From: Candidatus Contendibacter sp.
Lineage (GTDB): Bacteria > Pseudomonadota > Gammaproteobacteria > Competibacterales > Competibacteraceae
NCBI GenBank assembly: GCA_029624765.1
Contig: JARSSO010000007.1
Coordinates: forward strand, 1-64,000
DNA length: 64,000 nucleotides
Direction of reading: 5' to 3'
The position numbers were made by a program, and so were the translations under genes. Below, piece after piece: positions 18,427 to 58,886 of the stretch. Every line of letters starts with the position of its first letter. Position 1 is the stretch's first letter. A model generated the notes under the pieces. The model did not search any database and was not told the DNA's origin. It worked only from the letters and a program-made list of their open reading frames with translations.

Positions 18427-20391
18427 ATGCATGCCTTGAATGCCGACATTCAAACCGAACTTGAAGAGCGGCTGCGGTTTGAAACCCTGCTGGCCGCCCT
18501 CTCGGCGCGTTTTGTCAACCTGCCCCCCGATCGGGTGGACCAGGAAATCGAGAATGCCCTGCGCTGCCTGGCCGAAGCCTTGCGCGCGGACCGGTCCGCC
18601 TTGGGGCGCCTGACCGAGGACGGCCGGGATTTGGTCGTGACCCACTCGTTTGCCTTGCCCGGGATTGCGGCGTTCCCTCTGTTCCCCTCTTTGGCCACCG
18701 AGGCGCCGCTGCTGTCGCGGACGCTGTTGAGCGGCCAGCCGTTCGTGATGGCGCGTCTGGCCGATCTGCCCCCGGAGGGCGAACAGGATCGGCGGCTCTT
18801 CGCGGACCGTGAGATAGTGTCCGGCATGGTGATTCCCCTGGTGGTGGGCGGTCGGGTCATCGGCGGCGTCGGTTGCAGTCTGGCGCGCGGCGAGCGCGAA
18901 TGGCCGGAGCCCGTGGTGCGCGGGATGCGTCTGATCGCCGACGTGTTTGCCAATGCCCTGGCTCGCCAGGATGCCGACCGGGCGCTGCGCGAAAGCGAGG
19001 AACGCATGCGTCTGGCGGCGGAGGCGGCCCAGATCGGCCTGTGGGCCTGGGATATTCCCCACGACGCCATCTGGGCCTCGGACCGGGCGCGTGCCCTGTA
19101 CGGCGCCCAGCCCGACGAGCCGGTGAACTTTCGACGGTTCATGACCTGCGTTCATCCCGAGGACCGGACCCGGGTGGACGACGCGATACGGAACGCTTTC
19201 CGCCACGGCGGTGAATTCCGCGAGGAATATCGCGTCGTGCATCCCGATGGCGTCGTCCGCTGGCTCCATGTCGTCAGCTCCTGCCAACTGGACGCTGAAA
19301 GCCAACCGGCGCGAATGGTGGGTGCTTCCCTCGATGTCACCGAACGCCGGGACCATGAAACACGTTTTCGGAACGCCCTGGAGGAAGTGCGGCGCTTGCA
19401 GGCGCAACTCCAGCGGGAAAATCTCTATCTCCAACAGAAAGTGAGGTCCAGTCAGGGTCATGGCCGCGTCGTCGGCCAAAGCCCGGCCATCGTTCGAGTG
19501 TTGGCGCAGGTGGAGCAGGTGGCTCCCACGGCTTCCTCGGTGCTGCTGCTGGGCGAAACCGGAACCGGCAAGGAACTGCTCGCGACGGCGATTCACGAAC
19601 TGAGCCCGCGTCGCGACCGCGCCGTGGTGCGGGTCAACTGCGCGACGATTCCGGCGGCGCTGATCGAGAGTGAGTTGTTCGGGCGCGAGAAAGGCGCCTA
19701 TACCGGCGCGCTGGCCCGGCAGATCGGCCGCTTCGAGATGGCCAATGGTTCGACGATTTTCCTCGACGAAATCAGCGAACTGCCGCCCGAGTCCCAGGCC
19801 AAGCTGCTTCGGGTGCTGCAGGAAAAGGAAATCGAGCGGCTGGGCAGTCCGAAGCCGGTCAAGGTGGATGTTCGAGTCATCGCCGCCACCAACCGGGATT
19901 TGGCCAGGGCGGTCGCCGAAGGCCGTTTTCGTGAAGATCTGTACTACCGCCTGAACGTGTTCCCGATCACCGCGCCGCCGTTGCGCGAGCGGCGGGAGGA
20001 CATTCCGTTGCTGGTCTGGGCCTTCGTGGAGGAATTTTCGAAAGCCATGGGCAAGCCAATCCAGGCCGTCGCCAAGGCCAGCCTGCGGGCGCTGCAACAG
20101 TATGCCTGGCCTGGCAATGTGCGCGAATTGCGCAACGCCATCGAGCGGGCGATGATTTTGACGAGCGGTCCCATGCTCCGGATCGACCCGCCGAGCGTTG
20201 TCTCCGTCCCGGTATCGCGGGGTCTTGCCACCTTGGCGGAGGTCGAGCGCGAACACATCCAGCGGGTCCTGGAATCGACCCGCTGGCGCATCCGGGGAGC
20301 AGGAGGCGCGGCGGAAATCCTCGGCCTTCCCCCCACCACCCTCGAAAGCCGCATGGCCAAGCTTGGCCTGCGTCGCCATCCACCCCGTTAG
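18427..20391 (+). CDS. Sigma-54-dependent transcriptional activator (GAF-PAS-AAA-HTH)
   Basis: A 654-residue enhancer-binding protein. The N-terminus has a GAF-like sensor (about 15-180) and a PAS domain (about 190-310). A coiled coil ('[18 protein letters not shown]') leads to the AAA+ domain. This has Walker A 'GETGTGKE' near 375, the sigma-54 loop as 'GAYTGA' (usual form GAFTGA) near 423, and '[23 protein letters not shown]'. The Fis-type HTH ends with '[23 protein letters not shown]'. The likely target is the operon that begins at 20552, which has a -24/-12 promoter and a direct repeat placed as an upstream activating site. The inducing signal is unknown. Confidence 0.93.
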
Positions 20392-20394
20392 ACT

Positions 20395-20425
20395 ACGATA
20401 TTTCGGAGTTCCACGATATTTCGGA
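20395..20425 (+). promoter_or_regulatory. Candidate upstream activating site (direct repeat)
   Basis: ACGATATTTCGGA occurs exactly twice, at 20395-20407 and 20413-20425, with an 18-base period. It lies about 100-130 bases before the -24/-12 promoter at 20523, the usual position for a sigma-54 activator site. Binding by the activator encoded just upstream is inferred. Confidence 0.55.
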
Positions 20426-20522
20426 TGATCCGGGTGGGTTCGGTACGGCTGCGAACCTCGGATCCTTCGCGCGGTTCATTGTTTTAGGTGGCGATTTCAT
20501 TCCGGTCCGCATTTCGACCCGG

Positions 20523-20539
20523 CTGGCACGCTACCTGCC
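20523..20539 (+). promoter_or_regulatory. Sigma-54 (-24/-12) promoter of the ABM/DUF3141 operon
   Basis: CTGGCACG-CTAC-CTGC has the invariant GG (20525-20526) and GC (20537-20538) at the right ten-base spacing. The first T of the -12 box is C. Transcription should start near 20549-20551, only one to three bases before the ATG at 20552. Confidence 0.65.
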
Positions 20540-20551
20540 TTGCTGAAGTAC

Positions 20552-20896
20552 ATGATCGAACTGCGTCTTTGTCTCCAAGCCCGTCCCCAGCAAACCCAAC
20601 CGCTGGTTGCCGCGTTGCGGTCGCTGGCGCGGTCGGCTCGATTGGAGCGTGGCTGTCTGGAGGCCCATCTTTTCGTGGAAAGCGACGATTCCCGGCGTCT
20701 GTGCTACAGCGAGGTATGGGATGTGGAAGAAAATCTCCGATCCATGTTGCGCTCGAAGCGCTTCACCCACCTCGTGGAATTGATGGAAATGGCGGCCGAG
20801 CCACCCTCGCTCGATTTTCGGACCATCACCGAAACCCGTGGCATCGAATTCGCTCGACAGGCCCGAAGCGGCCAAAATGCGCTCTGGCCCGAATGA
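20552..20896 (+). CDS. ABM-fold (putative quinol monooxygenase) protein
   Basis: A 114-residue protein with the antibiotic-biosynthesis-monooxygenase fold: 'MIELRLCLQARPQQTQPLVAALRSLARSARLERGCLEAHLFVESDDSRRLCYSEVWD'. Such dimeric proteins oxidise quinones or only bind small aromatics; the substrate is not evident. The domain begins at the ATG, so the TTG 12 bases upstream is probably not used. It is the first gene after the sigma-54 promoter. It is followed after 94 bases by the DUF3141 gene, probably in the same transcript. No good ribosome site precedes the ATG. Confidence 0.78.
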   Translation: MIELRLCLQARPQQTQPLVAALRSLARSARLERGCLEAHLFVESDDSRRLCYSEVWDVEENLRSMLRSKRFTHLVELMEMAAEPPSLDFRTITETRGIEFARQARSGQNALWPE

Positions 20897-20990: not shown

Positions 20991-23189
20991 ATGACCGATC
21001 CCAAAGTCTTCTCCCCTTTCCAACACCTGCCCGCCCCCGCTCAGCAAGTCGCCGACTACTGGGTCGACGGTTGGCAACGCACCATCCTGTTCTGGGACAC
21101 GCTGCGCCGGCGCGGCAACCAGTATTTCGAGCACAAGGCCATGACGGTGCCGCACGTCCTCACTTTTGAGGCCGAACTGGTGCTGGACGGGCGCACCTTC
21201 GAACGGCCGGTCAACTACGGGCTGGTGCGGATCAAGCCGCCGGAAGGCGTGGTGATCGATCCGAAAAAGCGCCCGTTCGTGGTGGTCGATCCGCGCGCCG
21301 GCCACGGACCGGGGATCGGTGGGTTCAAGGCCGACAGCGAACTGGGCGTGGCGTTGCGCGCCGGCCACCCCTGTTATTTCGTCGGTTTCACCCCCGAGCC
21401 GATGCCCGGTCAGACCATTGAGGACATCATGCACGCCGAGGCCCGGTTCCTGGAAAAGGTCATCGAGCTGCATCCCAACGCCGACGGCAAGCCCTGCGTG
21501 ATCGGCAACTGCCAGGCCGGCTGGGCGGTGATGATGCTGGCCGCCACCCGGCCGGAATTGTTCGGACCGATCATCGTCCCCGGCTCGCCCCTGTCCTACT
21601 GGGCCGGGGTGGAAGGCAAAAACCCGATGCGCTACACCGGCGGCGTGCTGGGCGGCAGTTGGCTGACCGCGCTCACCAGCGATCTGGGGCACGGCAAGTT
21701 CGACGGTGCCAACCTGGTCGGCAATTTCGAAAACCTCAATCCCGCCAACACCTACTGGACCAAGAACTACGAGCTTTGGTCGAAGGTGGACACCGAGAGC
21801 GAGCGTTTCCTCGAATTCGAGACCTGGTGGGGCGGCCACGTCAACCTCAACGCCGAGGAAATGCAGTGGATCGTCGATCAACTGTTCATCGGCAACCGGC
21901 TGGCCACCGCCGAAATCGTCACCAGCGACGGCGTGCGCATCGATCTGCGCAACATTCGCTCGCCCATCGTTTGCTTCTGCTCCCAGGGCGACAACATCAC
22001 CCCGCCGCAGCAGGCGCTGGGCTGGATCGTCGATCTCTACGAAACCGACGACGATCTCCGCGCCTGTGGCCAGACCATCGTCTACGCCATCCACGAGAGT
22101 ATCGGCCATCTGGGCATCTTCGTCTCGGGTGGCGTGGCGCGGAAGGAGCATCAGGAGTTCGCTTCGAACATCGATCTGATCGACGTGCTGCCGCCCGGCC
22201 TGTACGAAGCGGTGATGACGCCCAAGACGGCGGACGCCACCAGCCCCGACTTGATCGGCGGCGACTGGATCGTCCGTTTCGAGCCGCGCGCGCTGGCCGA
22301 CCTGCGCGCCATCGTCCAGCCCAGTCCCGAAAACGAACGCCGTTTCGCCACTGCGCGGCGGATGTCGGAAATCAACCTCGGTCTGTATCGCACCCTGTTT
22401 CAGCCGTTCGTCCGGGCCTTCGCCAACAGCCAGGCCGCCATCGAACCGCCGCACCAGATCAAACCCGCCGAGCTGCCCAACCTGCTGCTCTCGGATCGCA
22501 ACCCACTGATGCAACAGATCGCCCAACTGGCCGAGCAGGTGCGCGAGCAACGGCAACCGGTGGCGCCCGATAACCCCTTCCTCCAGTGGCAAGCCATGTT
22601 TTCGGAGGGAATGATTGCCGCCCTGGACGGTTGGCGCGACTTGCGCGACCGCAGTCTGGAGCAGATTTTTCTGGCGGTGTACAGCGCTCCCCTGCTGCAA
22701 GCGCTGGTGGGATTGCAAGCCTCGGACGAACCACCGCGCCGACGGCCCGGCGTGGAACCGGAACGGATCGCCTTCATCCGACAGCGCATCGCCGAACTCA
22801 AGGCGCGCGTCGCCGAGGGCGGCTTGCGCGAAGCGGCCATCCGCGGTCTGGTCTACATCGGCATGGCCGGGCCGGGGGTGGACGAGCGGGCCTTCAACGA
22901 ATTGCGCCAGATCCGCGCCGGTCACACCACAATCACTTTGGAAGAATTCAAGCGGGTGCTGCGCGAGCAGTTCTTCGCCCTGCTGCTTGACCGCGACGAG
23001 GCGCTGGCCGCGATTCCCAGGATGCTGCCCGCCGACCCGGCGGGTCGGGCGGAGATGCTGACGGCGATCCGGGCCGTCGTCTCGGCGGCCGGCGAAGTGA
23101 TCGGGGAACGGGCCGAACGGCTAGCGCGGATCGAGAAACTGTTCAACGGTGCGGAAACGATCAAATCGGATTCGGGGAAAACCGATTGA
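20991..23189 (+). CDS. DUF3141 protein (PHA-synthase-like alpha/beta hydrolase)
   Basis: A 732-residue cytoplasmic protein of the DUF3141 family. The N-terminal half has an alpha/beta-hydrolase core. The nucleophile elbow is 'IGNCQAG' with C174, like the cysteine box of PHA synthases (G-x-C-x-G). Downstream are 'SPIVCFCSQGDNITPPQQALGW', with a candidate catalytic Asp, and 'IHESIGHLGIFVSGG', with a candidate His. Residues beyond about 440 form a helical extension. The family is often found with acetate kinase and FabI, as here. Activity on hydroxyacyl-CoA is inferred from the cysteine box. It has an AGGAG ribosome site. Confidence 0.9.
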   Translation: MTDPKVFSPFQHLPAPAQQVADYWVDGWQRTILFWDTLRRRGNQYFEHKAMTVPHVLTFEAELVLDGRTFERPVNYGLVRIKPPEGVVIDPKKRPFVVVDPRAGHGPGIGGFKADSELGVALRAGHPCYFVGFTPEPMPGQTIEDIMHAEARFLEKVIELHPNADGKPCVIGNCQAGWAVMMLAATRPELFGPIIVPGSPLSYWAGVEGKNPMRYTGGVLGGSWLTALTSDLGHGKFDGANLVGNFENLNPANTYWTKNYELWSKVDTESERFLEFETWWGGHVNLNAEEMQWIVDQLFIGNRLATAEIVTSDGVRIDLRNIRSPIVCFCSQGDNITPPQQALGWIVDLYETDDDLRACGQTIVYAIHESIGHLGIFVSGGVARKEHQEFASNIDLIDVLPPGLYEAVMTPKTADATSPDLIGGDWIVRFEPRALADLRAIVQPSPENERRFATARRMSEINLGLYRTLFQPFVRAFANSQAAIEPPHQIKPAELPNLLLSDRNPLMQQIAQLAEQVREQRQPVAPDNPFLQWQAMFSEGMIAALDGWRDLRDRSLEQIFLAVYSAPLLQALVGLQASDEPPRRRPGVEPERIAFIRQRIAELKARVAEGGLREAAIRGLVYIGMAGPGVDERAFNELRQIRAGHTTITLEEFKRVLREQFFALLLDRDEALAAIPRMLPADPAGRAEMLTAIRAVVSAAGEVIGERAERLARIEKLFNGAETIKSDSGKTD

Positions 23190-49500: not shown

Positions 49501-49775
49501 TCGCTAAGCGCTACCTGTCAGAATTTATGCGTCAATCCACTAGATTCCGCAGGTCTTTTCATACGGTCTCATCGCAGGACAGCGATTTGATAAAAAGGAT
49601 TTTTTACCCGTCTTGGCTCGCTTTCCAGCGAAATCCCCCGCGGCGTCCCGATGGATGCCTATTTCTCGTGGTCATCGCGCCACGAGAGCTTGCGTTCCGC
49701 CGCGTCATGTCGCGGCAACCGTGAAATAGCGAGGTTCCTCTTCCGCTCCCTCGTTTTGTCCAATTCGTCTTTATG

Positions 49776-49820: not shown

Positions 49821-49837
49821 TTGGCACGGAGTTTGAA
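49821..49837 (+). promoter_or_regulatory. Candidate sigma-54 promoter of the bufferin cluster
   Basis: TTGGCACG-GAGT-TTGAA has the full -24 box; its -12 box has A where the conserved C of TTGC is expected. It shares TGGCACGGA with the perfect promoter at 56321. If it is used, the message has a leader of about 190 bases before the bufA ATG. Confidence 0.5.
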
Positions 49838-50041: not shown

Positions 50042-50308
50042 ATGAACAGCAAAACCCTCGTTAACTCCGCCCTCGCCAGCGTTTTCGCCCTGGGTCTGGT
50101 CGCCACCGCCGGTCAAGCCGTCGCCGCCGAGGAGAAGAACGCCGAGAAGTGCTACGGCGTCGTCAAGGCCGGCAAGAACGACTGTCAAACCAGCGCCCAC
50201 GCCTGCGCCGGTCAGGCCAAGAAGGACGGTCAGGGCGATTCCTGGGTTTACGTCCCCAAGGGCACCTGCGAGAAGATCGTCGGCGGCAGCTTGCAGCCGA
50301 AGGCCTGA
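50042..50308 (+). CDS. bufA: Bufferin-type RiPP precursor (DUF2282 family)
   Basis: An 88-residue precursor. A signal peptide ends near AVAAEE (1-29). The mature part has four cysteines, C37, C48, C55 and C76, in the order '[14 protein letters not shown]', 'HACAG' and 'PKGTC'. This is the DUF2282 pattern of bufferin precursors, whose cysteines are converted by an MNIO enzyme to sulfur heterocycles that buffer copper in the periplasm. The conserved EKCYG motif is intact. A TAGGAG ribosome site precedes the ATG. It is first in a bufA-bufB-bufC-doxX block. Metal use in this organism is inferred from the family. Confidence 0.88.
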
Positions 50309-50318
50309 GGCGATTCCG

Positions 50319-51194
50319 ATGACCGCCAAGCCGGCCCTGTCCAGGCTTGGTCCCAGCTCGATTCCGGCTCGCGCCGGAATCGGCCTGCGGGCCGAACACT
50401 ATGCCGCCGTTTTGGAAGCTCCCCCGCCGGTCGGCTGGCTGGAGGTCCACAGCGAAAACTATTTCGGCGCCGGGGGCAAGCCCCTGGATTACCTGGAGCG
50501 CATCCGCGCCCATTATCCCCTGAGCCTGCACGGCGTCGGGTTGTCCATCGGTTCGACCGATCCGCTCGACCAGCGGCATCTGGCCAGCCTCAAGAACCTG
50601 ATCCGGCGGTTCGAACCGGCGCTGGTTTCCGAACATTTGTCCTGGAACTCGGTCGGTGGGCGCTATTTCAACGATCTGTTGCCGCTGCCCTACACGGAAG
50701 AGGCGCTCGACCACATGGTGGCGCGGGTGGTCCAGGTTCAGGACGTTCTCGGTCGGCAAATCCTGATCGAGAATCCGTCCAGCTATCTGCAATACGTGGA
50801 ATCGGCCATTCCCGAAGGGGAGTTTCTGGTTGCCTTGGCCGACCGCTCCGGCTGCGGCGTGTTGCTGGACGTGAACAACGTTTACGTCAGCGCCCGCAAC
50901 CACGGTTTCGACGCCAGCGCCTATCTGCGCGCGATTCCGCGCCGCCTGGTCCAGGAAATCCATCTGGCCGGGTTTACGGTGAACCGTTTCGACGACGGCG
51001 AACTGTTGATCGATACCCACAACCGGCCGGTCTGGCCGGCGGTCTGGGCGCTCTACCGCCAAGCCGTGCAACGCTTCGGCCGGATTCCGACGCTGATCGA
51101 ATGGGACACCGACCTGCCCGAACTGGCGGTGTTGGTGGACGAAGCGCACCGGGCCGACGCGATCCTGGAGGAACATCATGCTCGGGCTGCGTGA
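50319..51194 (+). CDS. bufB: MNIO enzyme (DUF692), bufferin maturase
   Basis: A 291-residue TIM-barrel oxidase of the multinuclear non-heme iron family (DUF692). Candidate iron ligands are all present: H71 ('LHGVGLSIG'), E105/H106 ('SEHLSW'), E151/N152, D184 and N186/N187 ('LLDVNNVYV'), H215 ('EIHLAG'), D232/H234 ('DTH') and E261/D263 ('EWDTD'). The family modifies cysteines of the precursor peptide. It starts ten bases after bufA and overlaps bufC by 17 bases, so all are cotranscribed. Confidence 0.93.
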   Translation: MTAKPALSRLGPSSIPARAGIGLRAEHYAAVLEAPPPVGWLEVHSENYFGAGGKPLDYLERIRAHYPLSLHGVGLSIGSTDPLDQRHLASLKNLIRRFEPALVSEHLSWNSVGGRYFNDLLPLPYTEEALDHMVARVVQVQDVLGRQILIENPSSYLQYVESAIPEGEFLVALADRSGCGVLLDVNNVYVSARNHGFDASAYLRAIPRRLVQEIHLAGFTVNRFDDGELLIDTHNRPVWPAVWALYRQAVQRFGRIPTLIEWDTDLPELAVLVDEAHRADAILEEHHARAA

Positions 51195-51960
51195 ACTGCA
51201 ACTCGGTTTTGCCGCCGCGGTGCTGGACGGCGCCGATGGCGTTTTCGACCGCCACGTCCGGGCAGCGGGGCTGAGCGGCGCCCGTCGCTTGCAAGTCTAC
51301 CGCAACAACGCCCTGCTGAGCCTGACCGGCGCGCTCGAAGCGGTTTATCCGGTAACGCGCCGCGTGGTGGGGGAAGGATTTTTTCAGTACGCGGCGGCGC
51401 AATACATCGCGCGCCATCCGTCCCGCTCGGGCGATTTGCACGCATTCGGCGAACAGTTTCCGCCGTTTCTTCAATCGTTCGTGCCGGCCGCCGATCTGGT
51501 CTACCTGCCCGATGTCGCCCGGCTGGAATGGGCCTATCACCGGGTTTTCCACGCCGCCGATCATCGGCCGCTCGATGTGGCGGCGCTGGCGCGAGTGCCC
51601 GCCGAACGGCGAGGAGAATTGCGTTTCGAACTGCATCCCGCCGCCCGCCTGCTCGAATCGGCTTTTCCGATCCTGCGGATCTGGCAGGTCAACCAGGACG
51701 ATCACGACGGCGATGCGGCGGTGGATTTGAGCGAAGGCGGCGTCAAGCTGCTGATCGTCCGCCGCGAGAATCTGGAGATCGAATTTCAACCCCTGGAAGA
51801 GGGGGAATTTGATCTGTTGCAGGCCCTGGCCGGAGCTTGCGACTTCGCCACGGCCTGTGGGCGGGCGATGGCCGCGCGACCGACGCTCGATTTGCCGGCC
51901 TGCGTTCAACGGCACGTTTCCCAGGGCGTCCTGGTCGCCTTTCACCTGCCAGGTTCTTGA
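51178..51960 (+). CDS. bufC: DUF2063 partner protein of the MNIO enzyme
   Basis: A 260-residue protein. The N-terminal part ('LRELQLGFAAAVL', 'RRLQVYRNNALLSLTGALEAVYPVTRRVVGEGFFQYAAAQYIARHPSRSGDLHAFGEQFP') is the DUF2063 'putative DNA-binding' domain. In RiPP clusters it acts instead as a peptide-binding partner that presents the precursor to the MNIO enzyme. The C-terminal part is a beta-rich domain of about 120 residues. The 17-base overlap with bufB makes coupled translation certain. Confidence 0.9.
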   Translation: MLGLRELQLGFAAAVLDGADGVFDRHVRAAGLSGARRLQVYRNNALLSLTGALEAVYPVTRRVVGEGFFQYAAAQYIARHPSRSGDLHAFGEQFPPFLQSFVPAADLVYLPDVARLEWAYHRVFHAADHRPLDVAALARVPAERRGELRFELHPAARLLESAFPILRIWQVNQDDHDGDAAVDLSEGGVKLLIVRRENLEIEFQPLEEGEFDLLQALAGACDFATACGRAMAARPTLDLPACVQRHVSQGVLVAFHLPGS

Positions 51961-51996: not shown

Positions 51997-52551
51997 ATGA
52001 TGACCGCCACCGACATGCTCGATAACCCACCCCAGCGCTCGTTCTGGGCGAAAGCCGCTCCCGCTCTCAAGAAAGCCGACACCTTGTTCCACAAGGCCGC
52101 CGATTGGCTGGCGCCCGTCGCCGATTTATTGGCGCGCTACTGGGTCGCCGCCGCCTTCTTCGGTTCGGGGCTGACCAAGACCACGAGCGGCAGTTTCACG
52201 CTGTTCGGCCATACCTTCAACTATCCGCTGAGCGTGTTCCCGGCGGAGAGCACCTTCACGCTGTTCGAATACGAGTACCACGTGCCCTTGTTGCCATCCA
52301 CGCTGGCGGCTTACCTCGGCACGGCGGCGGAGTTGCTGTTGCCGGTGTTCCTGCTGCTGGGTCTGGGCACCCGCTACGCCGCGTTCGCGCTGTTCGTGTT
52401 CAACATCGTGGCCGTCGTTTCCTATCCCGACCTGATGGAGGCGGGGTTGAAGGATCACCAGGTTTGGGGTTTGTTGCTGCTGATCACACTCTGCCACGGT
52501 CCGGGCAAACTGTCCCTGGATCATTGGATCGGCCGCCTGGTTCGCCGCTGA
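51997..52551 (+). CDS. DoxX-family membrane protein of the bufferin cluster
   Basis: A 184-residue inner-membrane protein with four helices. DoxX features are 'LLARYWVAAAFFGSGLTKTTSGSFTLFGHTFNYPLSVFPAESTFTLFEYEYHVPLLPSTLAAYLGTAAELLLPVFLLLGLGTRYAAFALFVFNIVAVVSYPDL'. DoxX proteins are linked to quinone redox reactions and are a frequent fourth gene of bufferin-like operons (sometimes bufD). The ATG has GAGGAG. It lies 36 bases after bufC. Confidence 0.92.
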   Translation: MMTATDMLDNPPQRSFWAKAAPALKKADTLFHKAADWLAPVADLLARYWVAAAFFGSGLTKTTSGSFTLFGHTFNYPLSVFPAESTFTLFEYEYHVPLLPSTLAAYLGTAAELLLPVFLLLGLGTRYAAFALFVFNIVAVVSYPDLMEAGLKDHQVWGLLLLITLCHGPGKLSLDHWIGRLVRR

Positions 52552-53993: not shown

Positions 53994-55961
53994 ATGAATG
54001 AAACCGTTTCGCAGCCCGCCGATAGACGATCCGTTCCGCGCAGTGACCCAGCGTTCCTGCCTCCCGACGAGCGGGACGCCATGCACTTGGCCTTGCGGTC
54101 CATCGTCGAAGGCACGGTCACCGCCACGGGCACCGAATTCTTCCACGCGCTGGTGCGGGAACTCGCCCAGGCGCTGAACGTGCGCCATGCCTTCGTGAGC
54201 GAACTGTTGGAAAACAAGGCGCGCGTGCGCACGTTGGCGTTCTGGTTCGGCGGTAAGCCCGCCGACAACATCGAATTTGACCTGGACGGCACGCCCTGCG
54301 AAATCGTCATTCGCGGCGACACGGTGTATTACACCAGCAAAGTTTACGAGATGTTTCCCCGGCATCCCGAACTCAAGGAACTAGGGATCGAGAGCTACTT
54401 TGGCGTACCGCTGGTATCCGAATCGGGAAACGAAATGATGGGCCACTTGGCTGTCATGCACGACCAGCCGATGGTCAAGGAATTTCGAGGCATGGCGTTG
54501 CTCCGGATTTTCGCCACCCGCGCCAGGGTCGAACTGGAGCGCAAGCGTGCTGAACAGGCCCTGCGCAAAAGCGAGGAACGGTTGGCCAGCATTCTGGCCA
54601 GCGCCATGGATGCCGTCATCACCATCGACGCCGAACAGCGCATCACCTTGTTCAACCCCGCCGCCGAAAAAGCCTTTCGTTGCCAGGCGGCGCAGGCCGT
54701 CGGCCAGCCGTTCGAAACCTTCCTTTCCAAGCGCTTCGGCAATCTGCTCAAGGGGTACTGCCTGGCGGTCCAGCCCGCCACCGTAAGTTCTCGACAACTG
54801 TGGGCGCCCGAGGGGCTGACTGCCCGACGCCGGGACGGCGAGGAATTTCCGGTGGAGGCGACGATCTCTCCCCTGGAGATCGAGGGTCGGCGGTTCTTCA
54901 CCGTGATTTTGCGAGACGTGACCGAACGCTGGCGGTCCGAGGAAACCTTCAAGCAGTTGCAACTGGAAAACGTCTATCTTCAGGAAGAGATCAAGACCCG
55001 GCAAAGTCCCAGTCACATCGTCGGCGACTCGCCGGCCATGCAGGACGTGTTCGCCCACGCCGAACAGGTGGCGGGCACCGATTCCACCGTGCTCCTGACC
55101 GGGGAAACCGGCACCGGCAAGAGCGTCATCGCGCGGTCGATTCACGATTTGAGCGACCGCCGGGACAAGCTGTTCGTGCCGGTCAATTGCGCCGCCCTGC
55201 CGGGCGATTTGGTGGAAAGCGAGTTGTTCGGCCACGAGAAGGGCGCGTTCACCGGTGCGATCGCCCAGCGCAAGGGGCGTTTCGAACTGGCCGACGGCGG
55301 CACCCTGTTCCTGGACGAGGTTGGCGAGATGAGCGCCGGCGCCCAGGCCAAGCTGTTGCGGGTGTTGCAGGATCAGGAATTCGAGCGCGTCGGCGGCACG
55401 CAGACCTTGAAGGTCAACGTGCGGCTGGTCGCCGCCACCAACCGCGATTTGGCCCGAATGGTCAAGGAAGGCGGCTTTCGCGCCGATCTGTATTATCGGC
55501 TGAACGTATTTCCGATTCGGTTGCCGTCCCTGCGCGAGCGCCCGACCGACATTCCGTTGCTGGCCCGGTTTTTTCTGGACAAGTTCGCGCGGAAGATGGG
55601 CAAATCGATTCACGATCTCTCGCCCAAGGCGAGCGAGCGGCTGCTGCACTACTCGTGGCCCGGCAATATCCGGGAGCTGCAAAACGTGATCGAGCGCGCG
55701 GCCATTCTGACCCGTGGTTCCCTGCTCGAAATCGACAATGCGCTTGAATTGCGCCTGGAAGACCAGGAAACGAAGGCCGCTCCCGAACAATGGGTTTCTT
55801 TCGAGGACATGGAGCGGGCTTATATCCTCAAGGTATTGGAGCGCACGCGCTGGGTCATCGAGGGCGAGCAGGGCGCCGCGGCGATTTTGGATCTCAATCC
55901 CAGCACCCTGCGTTCCCGGATGCAGAAACTGAACATCCGCAAACCCAAAAATCTCCCCTGA
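53994..55961 (+). CDS. Second sigma-54-dependent transcriptional activator (GAF-PAS-AAA-HTH)
   Basis: A 655-residue enhancer-binding protein. Start 53994 has an AAAGGA ribosome site; an open frame of 72 codons upstream does not look coding. A GAF-like sensor covers about 30-185 and a PAS domain about 195-310. The AAA+ domain has Walker A 'GETGTGKS' near 367, the sigma-54 contact 'GAFTGA' near 418, and '[20 protein letters not shown]'. The HTH is '[24 protein letters not shown]'. Its order and HTH resemble the activator at 18427, so the two are paralogues. Likely targets are the perfect promoter at 56321 and perhaps the bufferin promoter at 49821. Confidence 0.93.
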
Positions 55962-56140: not shown

Positions 56141-56221
56141 CTTTTTGACGGCCGCTGGAGAACCAGATCGTCGAGGTGGCCCTTTGAATCATGACGGCGG
56201 CCACGCTATTCGACGGCTTTG

Positions 56222-56292
56222 CGATATATCGTGGGACCGATTGCCCAAATCAGGCCAGCGCATGGAAGGCCATACAATTTAATCAATTGATT
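56222..56292 (+). promoter_or_regulatory. Candidate activator palindrome and IHF site
   Basis: CGATATATCG (56222-56231) is a perfect ten-base palindrome 90 bases before the -24 box, resembling the CGATATTTCG repeated at 20395. TAATCAATTGATT (56280-56292) fits the IHF consensus on the minus strand and lies between it and the promoter. DNA bending there is usual for sigma-54 promoters. Confidence 0.55.
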
Positions 56293-56320: not shown

Positions 56321-56337
56321 CTGGCACGGACATTGCT
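56321..56337 (+). promoter_or_regulatory. Consensus sigma-54 promoter
   Basis: CTGGCACG-GACA-TTGCT matches the -24/-12 consensus at every conserved position. Transcription should begin near 56348, giving a leader of about 47 bases before the ATG at 56395. Confidence 0.9.
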
Positions 56338-56394: not shown

Positions 56395-56697
56395 ATGAAC
56401 AAGACCATCGCGACCACCCTGTTGATTCTGGCGTCCGGCCTGACTCTGAGCACCACCGCGCTGGCGGAGCCTTTCAATCGCAGCGGTTCCTATGTGAACG
56501 CCATCAGCAATGCTCATTCCAGCGTCGGTGTTCAAAGCACGCCGAGCGTTCGGCACACCGATGCGCTGGCGACGGTCAACAGTTTCAACGACCGGACGGA
56601 CTATGAAGTAACCACCGTCAATTCCAAGCCGGTTGTCGAGTCCCCCGTGTCCAGAATGCTTTCGATCATTACCCGCGGGTTCAACGATCGTAGCTGA
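56395..56697 (+). CDS. Small exported protein under a sigma-54 promoter
   Basis: A 100-residue protein. The signal peptide is 'TIATTLLILASGLTLSTTALAEP'. The mature 77 residues are polar, rich in Ser, Asn, Thr and Val ('NRSGSYVNAISNAHSSVGVQSTPSVRHTDALATVNSFNDRTDYEVTTVNSKPVVESPVS'), with no cysteine. No family is recognised. The GAGGAG ribosome site is excellent and the promoter upstream is the best sigma-54 site in the window, so it is likely produced strongly when the adjacent activator is switched on. It could be a periplasmic or secreted structural or stress protein. Confidence 0.82.
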   Translation: MNKTIATTLLILASGLTLSTTALAEPFNRSGSYVNAISNAHSSVGVQSTPSVRHTDALATVNSFNDRTDYEVTTVNSKPVVESPVSRMLSIITRGFNDRS

Positions 56698-57010: not shown

Positions 57011-57832
57011 ATGTCGCTGACCGATACCTGCGAACTTCCCCTGAAGGGCCAGCGCGCCCTGGTGACCGGAGCCAGTTCCGGCATTGGCGCCGCCATCGCC
57101 AAGGCCCTGGCGGCGGCCGGCGCGAAAGTCGTCGTCAACTACGCCGGCGGCGCGGACCGGGCGCACGCCGTGGCGAACGCCATTCAGGCGGCCGGCGGCG
57201 AGGCGATGGCGATTCGCGCCGACGTCAGCCGGGAAGACGAGGTCGAGGCGATGTTCGCCCAGATGATCGAGACCTGGGGCAGCATCGATATTCTGGTCAA
57301 CAACGCCGGCTTGCAAAAAGACGCCCCCCTGGTCGAGATGAGCCTGGCCGACTGGCAAAAGGTCATCGACATCAATCTGACCGGTCAGTTTCTGTGTTCC
57401 CGCGCCGCCGTGCGCGAATTCCTCCGGCGCGGCGTCGTGCCGGAACTGTCGCGCGTCGCCGGCAAGATCATCTGCATGTCCTCGGTCCACGATGTGATTC
57501 CGTGGGCCGGACACGCCAACTACGCCGCGTCCAAGGGCGGTGTCAGCCTGTTGATGAAAACCATGGCCCAGGAACTCGCGCCGCGCTGCATCCGGGTCAA
57601 CGCCATTTCGCCCGGCGCGATCAAGACCCCGATCAACACCGCCGCCTGGATGACCCCCGAGGCCGAGGCGGAACTGTTGAAGCTGATTCCCTGCCGCCGG
57701 GTCGGCGAGCCGGAAGACATCGCCCGCGCCACGGTGTGGCTCGCCTCCGACGCGTCCGACTACGTCACCGGCGCCACGCTGTACGTGGACGGCGGCATGA
57801 CCCTCTATCCCGGTTTCGATCAGGGAGGCTGA
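57011..57832 (+). CDS. SDR-family oxidoreductase (glucose 1-dehydrogenase-like)
   Basis: A 273-residue NAD(P)-dependent dehydrogenase. The cofactor motif is 'VTGASSGIGAAIAKALAAAGAKVVVNY', followed by 'NNAGLQ'. The catalytic residues are in 'MSSVHDVIPWAGHANYAASKGG' (Ser, Tyr, Lys), and the end is 'TGATLYVDGGMTLYPGF'. The pattern is that of bacterial glucose 1-dehydrogenases, but SDR specificity is hard to predict. Start 57011 has TTGAGGAG. The next gene begins one base after the stop. Confidence 0.9.
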   Translation: MSLTDTCELPLKGQRALVTGASSGIGAAIAKALAAAGAKVVVNYAGGADRAHAVANAIQAAGGEAMAIRADVSREDEVEAMFAQMIETWGSIDILVNNAGLQKDAPLVEMSLADWQKVIDINLTGQFLCSRAAVREFLRRGVVPELSRVAGKIICMSSVHDVIPWAGHANYAASKGGVSLLMKTMAQELAPRCIRVNAISPGAIKTPINTAAWMTPEAEAELLKLIPCRRVGEPEDIARATVWLASDASDYVTGATLYVDGGMTLYPGFDQGG

Positions 57833-57833
57833 C

Positions 57834-58886
57834 ATGCAACGGATCGGATCGCGCCGTGCCATTCTCCCGCGCACGGTGCTGTTGGGTCTGTGCCTGGCCC
57901 AGCAACCTGGTGCTTGGGCCGCCGGCGAGGCTGGAACGCCGGCCCGTTCGGATTCCCGCGCCGACCATTCCAGCCTGCCCGCCGACGTACAGCCCTGGTG
58001 GCCGAGCCGCTATGGCGCGGACGATCAACTCGGCACCCTCAACGAAATCACCCCCGAGGTGGTGCGAGCGGCGACCGCCCTGGTGAAAACCGGAACCGTG
58101 GTCGATCTGGGCCGGGTACTGGACGACGACACCCCCAAGTTTCCCGGCCGCTACTGGCACCAGACCGTCGACGTTTCGCCCCATCTCGCCAACCTGCGCC
58201 GCCCGGACGTCGACGGCAAGGGTTGGGGCAAGAACCAGATCAACTGGATCACCGAGATTCAGGTGGGCACCTTTCAGGTCGGCACCCAGTTGGATTCCAT
58301 CGGCCACATCCAGATCGGCGACCGGTTTTACAACGGCTGGACCACGCGCGATGTGGTGGAGTCTTGGGGCCTGAACCGCTTCGGTACCGAAACCGTGCCG
58401 CCCATCGTTACCCGGGGCGTGCTGGTCGATATCGCCGCCTACAAGGGCGTGGAGCGCCTGGCCAAGGGCTACGTGATCACCCTGGCCGACGTGCAAGGCG
58501 CGTTGGAAAAGCAGGGCGTTACCCTGCGGCCCGGCGACGCGGTGCTGTTTCACACCGGCTGGGGTGGACTGTGGGGCAAGGACAACACCGAATTTCTTTC
58601 CGGCGAGCCCGGTCCCGGCCTGGAGGTCGTGAACTGGCTGTACGCGCAGCGCATCGCGTTGACCGGCGCCGACACCTGGAGCTACGGACCGGTGCCCGGC
58701 GAAGACCCGGAACGCCCCTTCCTGGTGCCACAGACCATGTACGTGAAGATGGGATTGTTTGGCCTGGAAAATCTGGCGACCGAAGAGTTGGCGCGGCGCG
58801 GCGTCCACGAATTCCTGTTCACCCTCACCCATGCCAAGACCCGCGGTTCAACGGCGGCGATCATCGCCCCGGCGGCGGTTTATTGA
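57834..58886 (+). CDS. Cyclase-family (kynurenine-formamidase-like) exported protein
   Basis: A 350-residue protein with a signal peptide ('ILPRTVLLGLCLAQQPGAWA'). The fold is the cyclase/formamidase type. The usual metal motif HxGTHxDxPxH is here 'QVGTQLDSIGH' (Q148, G150, T151, Q152, D154, H158). Both histidines of HxGTH are glutamine, while the Asp and last His remain. Related proteins with an incomplete motif exist, so it may bind metal differently or have another activity. Cotranscribed with the SDR and GMC genes. Confidence 0.84.
   Translation: MQRIGSRRAILPRTVLLGLCLAQQPGAWAAGEAGTPARSDSRADHSSLPADVQPWWPSRYGADDQLGTLNEITPEVVRAATALVKTGTVVDLGRVLDDDTPKFPGRYWHQTVDVSPHLANLRRPDVDGKGWGKNQINWITEIQVGTFQVGTQLDSIGHIQIGDRFYNGWTTRDVVESWGLNRFGTETVPPIVTRGVLVDIAAYKGVERLAKGYVITLADVQGALEKQGVTLRPGDAVLFHTGWGGLWGKDNTEFLSGEPGPGLEVVNWLYAQRIALTGADTWSYGPVPGEDPERPFLVPQTMYVKMGLFGLENLATEELARRGVHEFLFTLTHAKTRGSTAAIIAPAAVY

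Follow-up and report, generated by a model that had tools for sequence, protein, structure and literature searches.

The paired repeats that precede several sigma-54 promoters in this Candidatus Contendibacter genome are very probably upstream activating (enhancer) sites, namely paired palindromes bound by dimers of two related activators, act1 and act2, at the promoters of small regulons. The window, that is, the whole analysed stretch of 64,000 nucleotides, contains three of these promoters (P1, P2 and P3) and both activator genes. By sequence it was shown that the paired site exists, that it is conserved and regularly spaced, that it is linked to sigma-54 promoters and co-occurs with the activators, and that the genome has one extra promoter of this kind. 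This arrangement exists and has been kept in evolution, but its general type is well known.

The paired palindrome element

An earlier note on this DNA had described similar short motifs before three candidate promoters, and all of its strings, the three motifs as well as the three -24/-12 candidates, were located where it had placed them. The motif ACGATATTTCGGA is duplicated before P1 (at 20395 and 20413, an offset of 18 bp), TGAAATAGCG is found at 49722-49731 before P2 and the palindrome CGATATATCG at 56222-56231 before P3, while the -24/-12 candidates are TGGCACGCTACCTGC at 20524, TGGCACGGAGTTTGA at 49822 and TGGCACGGACATTGC at 56322. The proposed common site CG(A/C)TAT(T/A)TC(G/A) turned out to be the core of the real site, which in full comprises two 16-bp palindromes set 18 or 19 bp apart. 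The 10-mer (CGMTATWTCR) gave 57 strand-matches in the 4.29-Mb genome versus 33 for the reversed pattern; it is therefore only weakly informative and, being unspecific, was dropped as a stand-alone genome-wide motif.

At P1-P3 the element consists of two palindromes with the consensus CCRCGAWA-TWTCGYGG, located upstream of the -24/-12 site, as follows:

20393-20408, forward strand: P1 palindrome, copy 1, CTACGATATTTCGGAG; conserved beside act1 in 8 genomes, model score 26.6 bits
20411-20426, forward strand: P1 palindrome, copy 2, CCACGATATTTCGGAT; centre 18 bp from copy 1, footprint
49700-49715, forward strand: P2 palindrome, copy 1, CCGCGTCATGTCGCGG; footprint in 7 genomes, missed in the earlier note
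49719-49734, forward strand: P2 palindrome, copy 2, CCGTGAAATAGCGAGG; centre 19 bp from copy 1, footprint
56201-56216, forward strand: P3 palindrome, copy 1, degenerate here (CCACGCTATTCGACGG; CCGCGTTATTTAACGG in relatives); footprint
56219-56234, forward strand: P3 palindrome, copy 2, TTGCGATATATCGTGG; centre 18 bp from copy 1, footprint

The footprints were obtained by aligning orthologous promoters from Competibacteraceae genomes, and it was revealed that the intergenic paired palindromes and the -24/-12 element are conserved while the flanks drift. The conserved block behind act1 reads CTACGATATTTCGGAG-TT-CCACGATATTTCGGAT. In the alignment of the bufA upstream region, CCGCGTCATGTCGCGG-CAA-CCGTGAAATAGCGAGG stands out as the most clearly conserved block apart from the -24/-12 element, the previously described TGAAATAGCG being the core of its second palindrome. 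The block before the gene for a small exported protein (P3) is CCGCGTTATTTAACGG-CT-TTGCGATATATCGYGG, with the first half degenerate in the genome under study. Of 65 pairs from the family, 64 have their centres 18 or 19 bp apart, although any spacing of 14-24 bp was permitted. The core CGATA-TATCG is common to P1, P2, P3 and a fourth promoter, P4, located just outside the window.

Note that exact 13-bp close direct repeats are frequent in the window (15 versus 0.07 expected in a first-order Markov simulation), so that repetition alone does not prove an element. The case for a paired regulatory site lies in conservation and promoter linkage rather than in repetition.

Sigma-54 promoters and spacers

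The following promoter elements were found downstream of the palindromes:

20524-20539, forward strand: P1 sigma-54 -24/-12 element, TGGCACGCTACCTGCC; 14.1 bits, conserved in orthologues
49822-49837, forward strand: P2 sigma-54 element, TGGCACGGAGTTTGAA; 15.1 bits, footprint
56322-56337, forward strand: P3 sigma-54 element, TGGCACGGACATTGCT; 17.9 bits, conserved in 7 promoters

GG at -24 and GC at -12 at the standard spacing are present in P1, P3 and P4, and P2 has GA at -12. The perfect sequence TGGCAC-N5-TTGC occurs only at P3; at -12, P1 has CTGC and P2 has TTGA. The departure from the consensus before bufA is kept in most orthologues. The genome contains rpoN (PF04552, 1.8e-70, G000:C10) and six perfect TGGCAC-N5-TTGC sites. 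When one mismatch was allowed in the genome scan, 262 sites were found versus 301 in the reversed control; given this lack of excess, a promoter search alone cannot define the regulon.

The palindromes lie 75-128 bp upstream of the promoters. Five class medians of this distance (75, 84, 94, 105 and 126), chosen after the data had been seen, gave R = 0.92 at 10.5 bp (p about 0.005), and nine classes gave R = 0.64 (p = 0.02); the helical phasing is suggestive only. The spacer between site and promoter is AT-rich. Perfect IHF-like matches were present in 37% of the spacers versus 1.8% in shuffles, and matches with at most one mismatch in 68% versus 20%.

The activators act1 and act2

Two genes of the window encode enhancer-binding proteins of the same domain order:

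18427-20391, forward strand: act1, GAF-PAS-AAA+-Fis-type HTH enhancer-binding protein, 654 aa; Sigma54_activat 5e-70, PAS_3, GAF_2, HTH_8
53994-55961, forward strand: act2, GAF-PAS-AAA+-Fis-type HTH enhancer-binding protein, 655 aa; Sigma54_activat 4.5e-73, PAS_4, GAF, HTH_8

The E-values refer to the sigma-54 interaction AAA+ domain (PF00158), and both proteins carry a Fis-type C-terminal HTH (PF02954). The protein act2 has the loop KGAFTGA and the Walker A motif GETGTGKS; act1 has KGAYTGA, a one-residue variant of the GAFTGA loop, and GETGTGKE.

Orthologues of act1 (76-85%) were found in seven other genomes of the family (eight with its own) and those of act2 in 18 others (19 with its own), some of the latter being partial, at contig ends. 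Public records of close act2 orthologues are named Candidatus Contendobacter, Candidatus Competibacter or Competibacteraceae. An 81% act2 orthologue is also present on an 18109-base contig (JAAUTD010000038.1, L209) of a metagenome-assembled genome named Synechococcaceae cyanobacterium SM1_2_3, which looks mislabelled. In Contendobacter odensis (G007) there are two act2 copies (G007:C84 and G007:C200), and behind each of them lie a paired site and a sigma-54 promoter. A third paralogue with a similar HTH (G000:C7:108765-110168, L105), which might also bind the sites, has an apparent response-regulator receiver domain upstream in frame, and no paired site was found near it.

Enhancer-binding proteins bind palindromes as dimers, form AAA+ oligomers and, through DNA looping, open sigma-54 promoters with the energy of ATP. 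By analogy, dimers of act1 or act2 would bind the 16-bp palindromes and nucleate the AAA+ oligomer. The AT-rich DNA between site and promoter would be bent, perhaps by IHF, a role that we infer, and the DNA would loop back so that the activator could touch the sigma-54 RNA polymerase held at -24/-12. ATP hydrolysis by the activator would then open the promoter.

Probable target genes

The genes that follow the three promoters are listed below:

20552-20896, forward strand: first gene of P1, ABM-domain (antibiotic biosynthesis monooxygenase-like) protein, 114 aa; PF03992 3.2e-07
20991-23189, forward strand: DUF3141 protein, likely in the P1 operon; PF11339
23186-24418, forward strand: acetate kinase (ackA), likely in the P1 operon; PF00871
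24433-25215, forward strand: enoyl-ACP reductase-like SDR (FabI-type), likely in the P1 operon; adh_short_C2 1.9e-84
50042-50308, forward strand: bufA (P2), DUF2282 bufferin-type precursor with four Cys; PF10048 6.2e-26
50319-51194, forward strand: bufB, MNIO enzyme (MbnB_TglH_ChrH); PF05114 8e-110
51178-51960, forward strand: putative bufC-like partner (DUF2063 by position), judged from position and gene order
51997-52551, forward strand: DoxX membrane protein; PF07681 2.3e-14
56395-56697, forward strand: small exported protein (P3), 100 aa; orthologues in 5 other genomes
57011-57832, forward strand: SDR oxidoreductase, P3 cluster; from its translation and a homologue's Pfam match
57834-58886, forward strand: putative cyclase, P3 cluster; PF04199
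58902-60344, forward strand: GMC oxidoreductase, P3 cluster; PF05199, PF00732

Orthologues of the ABM gene also stand behind P1-type sites in other genomes. The operon behind P2 was assigned to the bufferins by its DUF2282 precursor with four cysteines, the MNIO enzyme and DoxX; the NCBIfam BufA2 model scored below its cut-off for bufA (35.7 versus 60). The small exported protein of P3 belongs to no family in Pfam or NCBIfam. P4 is followed by genes for an MGH1-like glycosidase and a DoxX/NDH-2 fusion.

Of the two activators, act1 would drive P1 (ABM, DUF3141, ackA and enoyl reductase genes), and act2 would drive P2 (the bufferin operon), P3 (small exported protein, SDR, cyclase and GMC oxidoreductase) and P4. 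Since the targets include bufferin, MsrA, DoxX and SDR/GMC oxidoreductases, the signal is presumably copper, oxidant or respiratory stress, which the GAF-PAS part of the activators would sense.

Genome and family scans

A sequence-only model, R1, was built from 21 palindrome pairs, all taken from orthologues of P1-P3. In the own genome (4.29 Mb) it found four places at E<=0.001, the three trained ones and a new one, and the next best place had E=0.5. The new site belongs to P4 (contig position 69511-69544, 24.7 bits), and a sigma-54 promoter, TGGCATAAGTGTTGCT, is located 67 nt downstream of it.

In the family, 70 sites were found in 22 of the 39 Competibacteraceae genomes. The earlier note had set enrichment near other -24/-12 promoters as a test, and it was borne out by the one more site of the own genome and by the family scan: 43 of the 49 untrained sites have a sigma-54 element scoring 11 bits or more within 180 nt. 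Some of the untrained sites are counterparts, in other genomes, of promoters used for training. The control rates were 3-5%, namely 4.9% for random windows treated in the same way and 2.9% for 210 gene-upstream regions. Wholly new classes among the untrained sites precede a glycosidase (14 genomes), an EF-hand exported protein and an SDR cluster. Another new class comprises three sites before a carboxymuconolactone decarboxylase, one of them in the training set. The sites before the exported EF-hand protein (P5-type) are present in several relatives (L144, L163 and L167), with an MsrA-like neighbour in G007; none was found in the own genome.

Site subtypes and co-occurrence with the activators

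Two subtypes of the site were distinguished: the P1-type occurs with act1 and the P2-6-type with act2. They differ at half-site positions +6 (G/T in the P1-type versus C/T in the P2-6-type) and +7 (A versus G). The presumed recognition helices, TTLESRM in act1 and STLRSRM in act2, differ in one charged residue.

According to counts that rest on draft genomes and on our own sorting of site types, P2-6-type sites are present in 19/19 act2 genomes versus 3/20 others (Fisher 2.6e-8, 39 family genomes). The three others are G008, G022 and G033, in which no clear act2 was found, and G033 is a weak case. P1-type sites were found in all eight act1 genomes by eye (seven of the eight by script) and, among genomes without act1, only in G008, a correlation that is inflated because P1 adjoins act1 in most genomes. 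The difference between the two counts is the G005 site GACTCCGATATTTCGGAATTCCACGATATTTCGGAT (3747), which was counted as P1-type by eye and had been filed otherwise by the regular expression.

All act1 genomes also contain act2, the C-terminal 50 residues of the two proteins are identical at 26 positions, and the palindrome core is shared by all the promoters. These features would fit a single activator, either act2 or the third paralogue at 108765, that binds all four promoters as one regulon, act1 having another target. We consider this unlikely: P1-type sites are confined to act1 genomes except for G008 (among the 19 act2 genomes, 8/8 with act1 and 0/11 without it), and both the +6/+7 positions and the recognition helices differ between the subtypes. 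As for the one common regulon proposed in the earlier note, the related sites before sigma-54 promoters stand, but they fall into two subtypes. Since these follow the two activators, there seem to be two sister regulons whose sites are related.

Sites outside Competibacteraceae

The class-wide scan of 369 genomes gave matches in eight further genomes at E<=0.02, which is about the number expected by chance. A strong sigma-54 element is located 77-88 nt away in three of these eight matches and is absent in the other five. In two of the three (G171 and G177), about 40 bp separate the stop codon of the genome's closest act2 homologue from the site, and the sigma-54 promoter comes next. This layout, with the site behind the activator gene, is that of act1 and P1 in the own genome, and it is the best evidence that activator and site belong together. 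In G171 an SDR follows the site, and DoxX-like and NDH-2-like genes, read by eye, are close by. The gene after the G177 site (L219, G177:C1:30223-31608) resembles CcoG/FixG by eye, a further link to copper and respiration.

Palindromic sites of 16 bp are typical of many regulators, and the palindromes could be operators of an unrelated repressor or response regulator at sigma-54 promoters, with act1 and act2 binding elsewhere or nowhere. This seems improbable to us, given that the sites lie 75-128 bp upstream of sigma-54 promoters, co-occur with the act genes and adjoin an act2 homologue in two other families. It is still far less probable that the P1 repeat, which begins 2 nt past the stop codon of act1, serves as a transcription terminator or RNA element of that gene. 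No T run follows it, and the same paired element is found at P2 and P4, away from the activators and outside the transcript of the promoter that it precedes. Furthermore, the copy behind act1 in G005 lacks a good promoter and its second palindrome is broken, while an intact copy lies ahead of the ABM gene about 4.7 kb away. A chance likeness of short AT-centred strings, for which the 57 matches of the 10-mer alone might speak, is hardly credible and is refuted by the conservation, the untrained fourth site, the 43/49 sigma-54 linkage and the fixed spacing.

The preferred reading, paired enhancer sites for act1 and act2, can be extended to a regulon module beyond Competibacteraceae: an activator with an FhlA-like HTH, a paired palindrome behind its own gene, and sigma-54 promoters of genes linked to copper, redox and respiration (bufferin, MsrA, SDR/GMC, DoxX/NDH-2 and the CcoG-like protein in G177). 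We give this extension an even chance. If it is true, one member of the module would be the first bufferin operon driven by sigma-54, and the recognition helix (E in act1, R in act2) would set the specificity for the site.

Comparison with known systems

Like FhlA of E. coli, act1 and act2 have a GAF-type sensing part, an AAA+ domain, a C-terminal HTH and upstream sites at sigma-54 promoters. The NCBIfam FhlA model (NF011958) aligns with residues 317-650 of act1 and 321-650 of act2, HTH included. However, the scores of 387.1 and 390.9 bits miss the cut-off of 830, so that neither protein is FhlA, and the targets are other than formate hydrogenlyase. The paired site of P1-P4 is also presumably unlike that of FhlA.

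The AAA+ architecture is the same as in the NifA/NorR/NtrC class, whereas the HTH, the paired site and the presence of PAS are different. The NifA model (TIGR01817, cut-off 528.85) gave 374.1 bits for act1 and 411.3 for act2; over the AAA+ domain, act2 scored 357 bits with the NorR model and 411 with NifA, below all curated cut-offs. The closest solved chain is a Nif-specific regulatory protein (9qq6). With scores so far below the FhlA, NifA and NorR cut-offs, act1 and act2 represent additions to a known class, and no description of the paired site was found in a partial literature search.

Among solved structures, the PAS domain of act2 (window 54519-55000) is closest to FixL, residues 182-325 aligning at 6e-14. 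A FixL-type heme is unlikely in it: the FixL segment ...RSRHDSY... reads ...GNLLKGY... in act2, without the heme histidine.

The P2 operon has the core reported for bufferin clusters, namely the DUF2282 precursor, the MNIO enzyme, the partner and DoxX (PMC12452194). Sigma-70-family sigma factors and the NrsF anti-sigma factor have been reported in those clusters (PMC12452194), whereas the P2 operon has a sigma-54 promoter and an enhancer-binding protein. Neither sigma-54 control of bufferins nor regulation in Competibacteraceae/Contendobacter was the subject of any paper in a partial literature search, which also gave nothing useful on DUF3141.

The Competibacteraceae, wastewater bacteria that accumulate glycogen, are known chiefly through metagenomes. 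In the uncultured bacterium under study, as far as sequence comparison can tell, two related activators most likely turn on the gene of a copper-buffering peptide and other genes probably involved in stress. A defined site with two activators provides a testable stress regulon for a set of so far uncharacterised genes, those of the small exported protein, the DUF3141 operon, the MGH1-like glycosidase and bufferin. The arrangement also suggests that sigma-54 control would be a new route of bufferin regulation, unlike the sigma-70-family factors reported so far.
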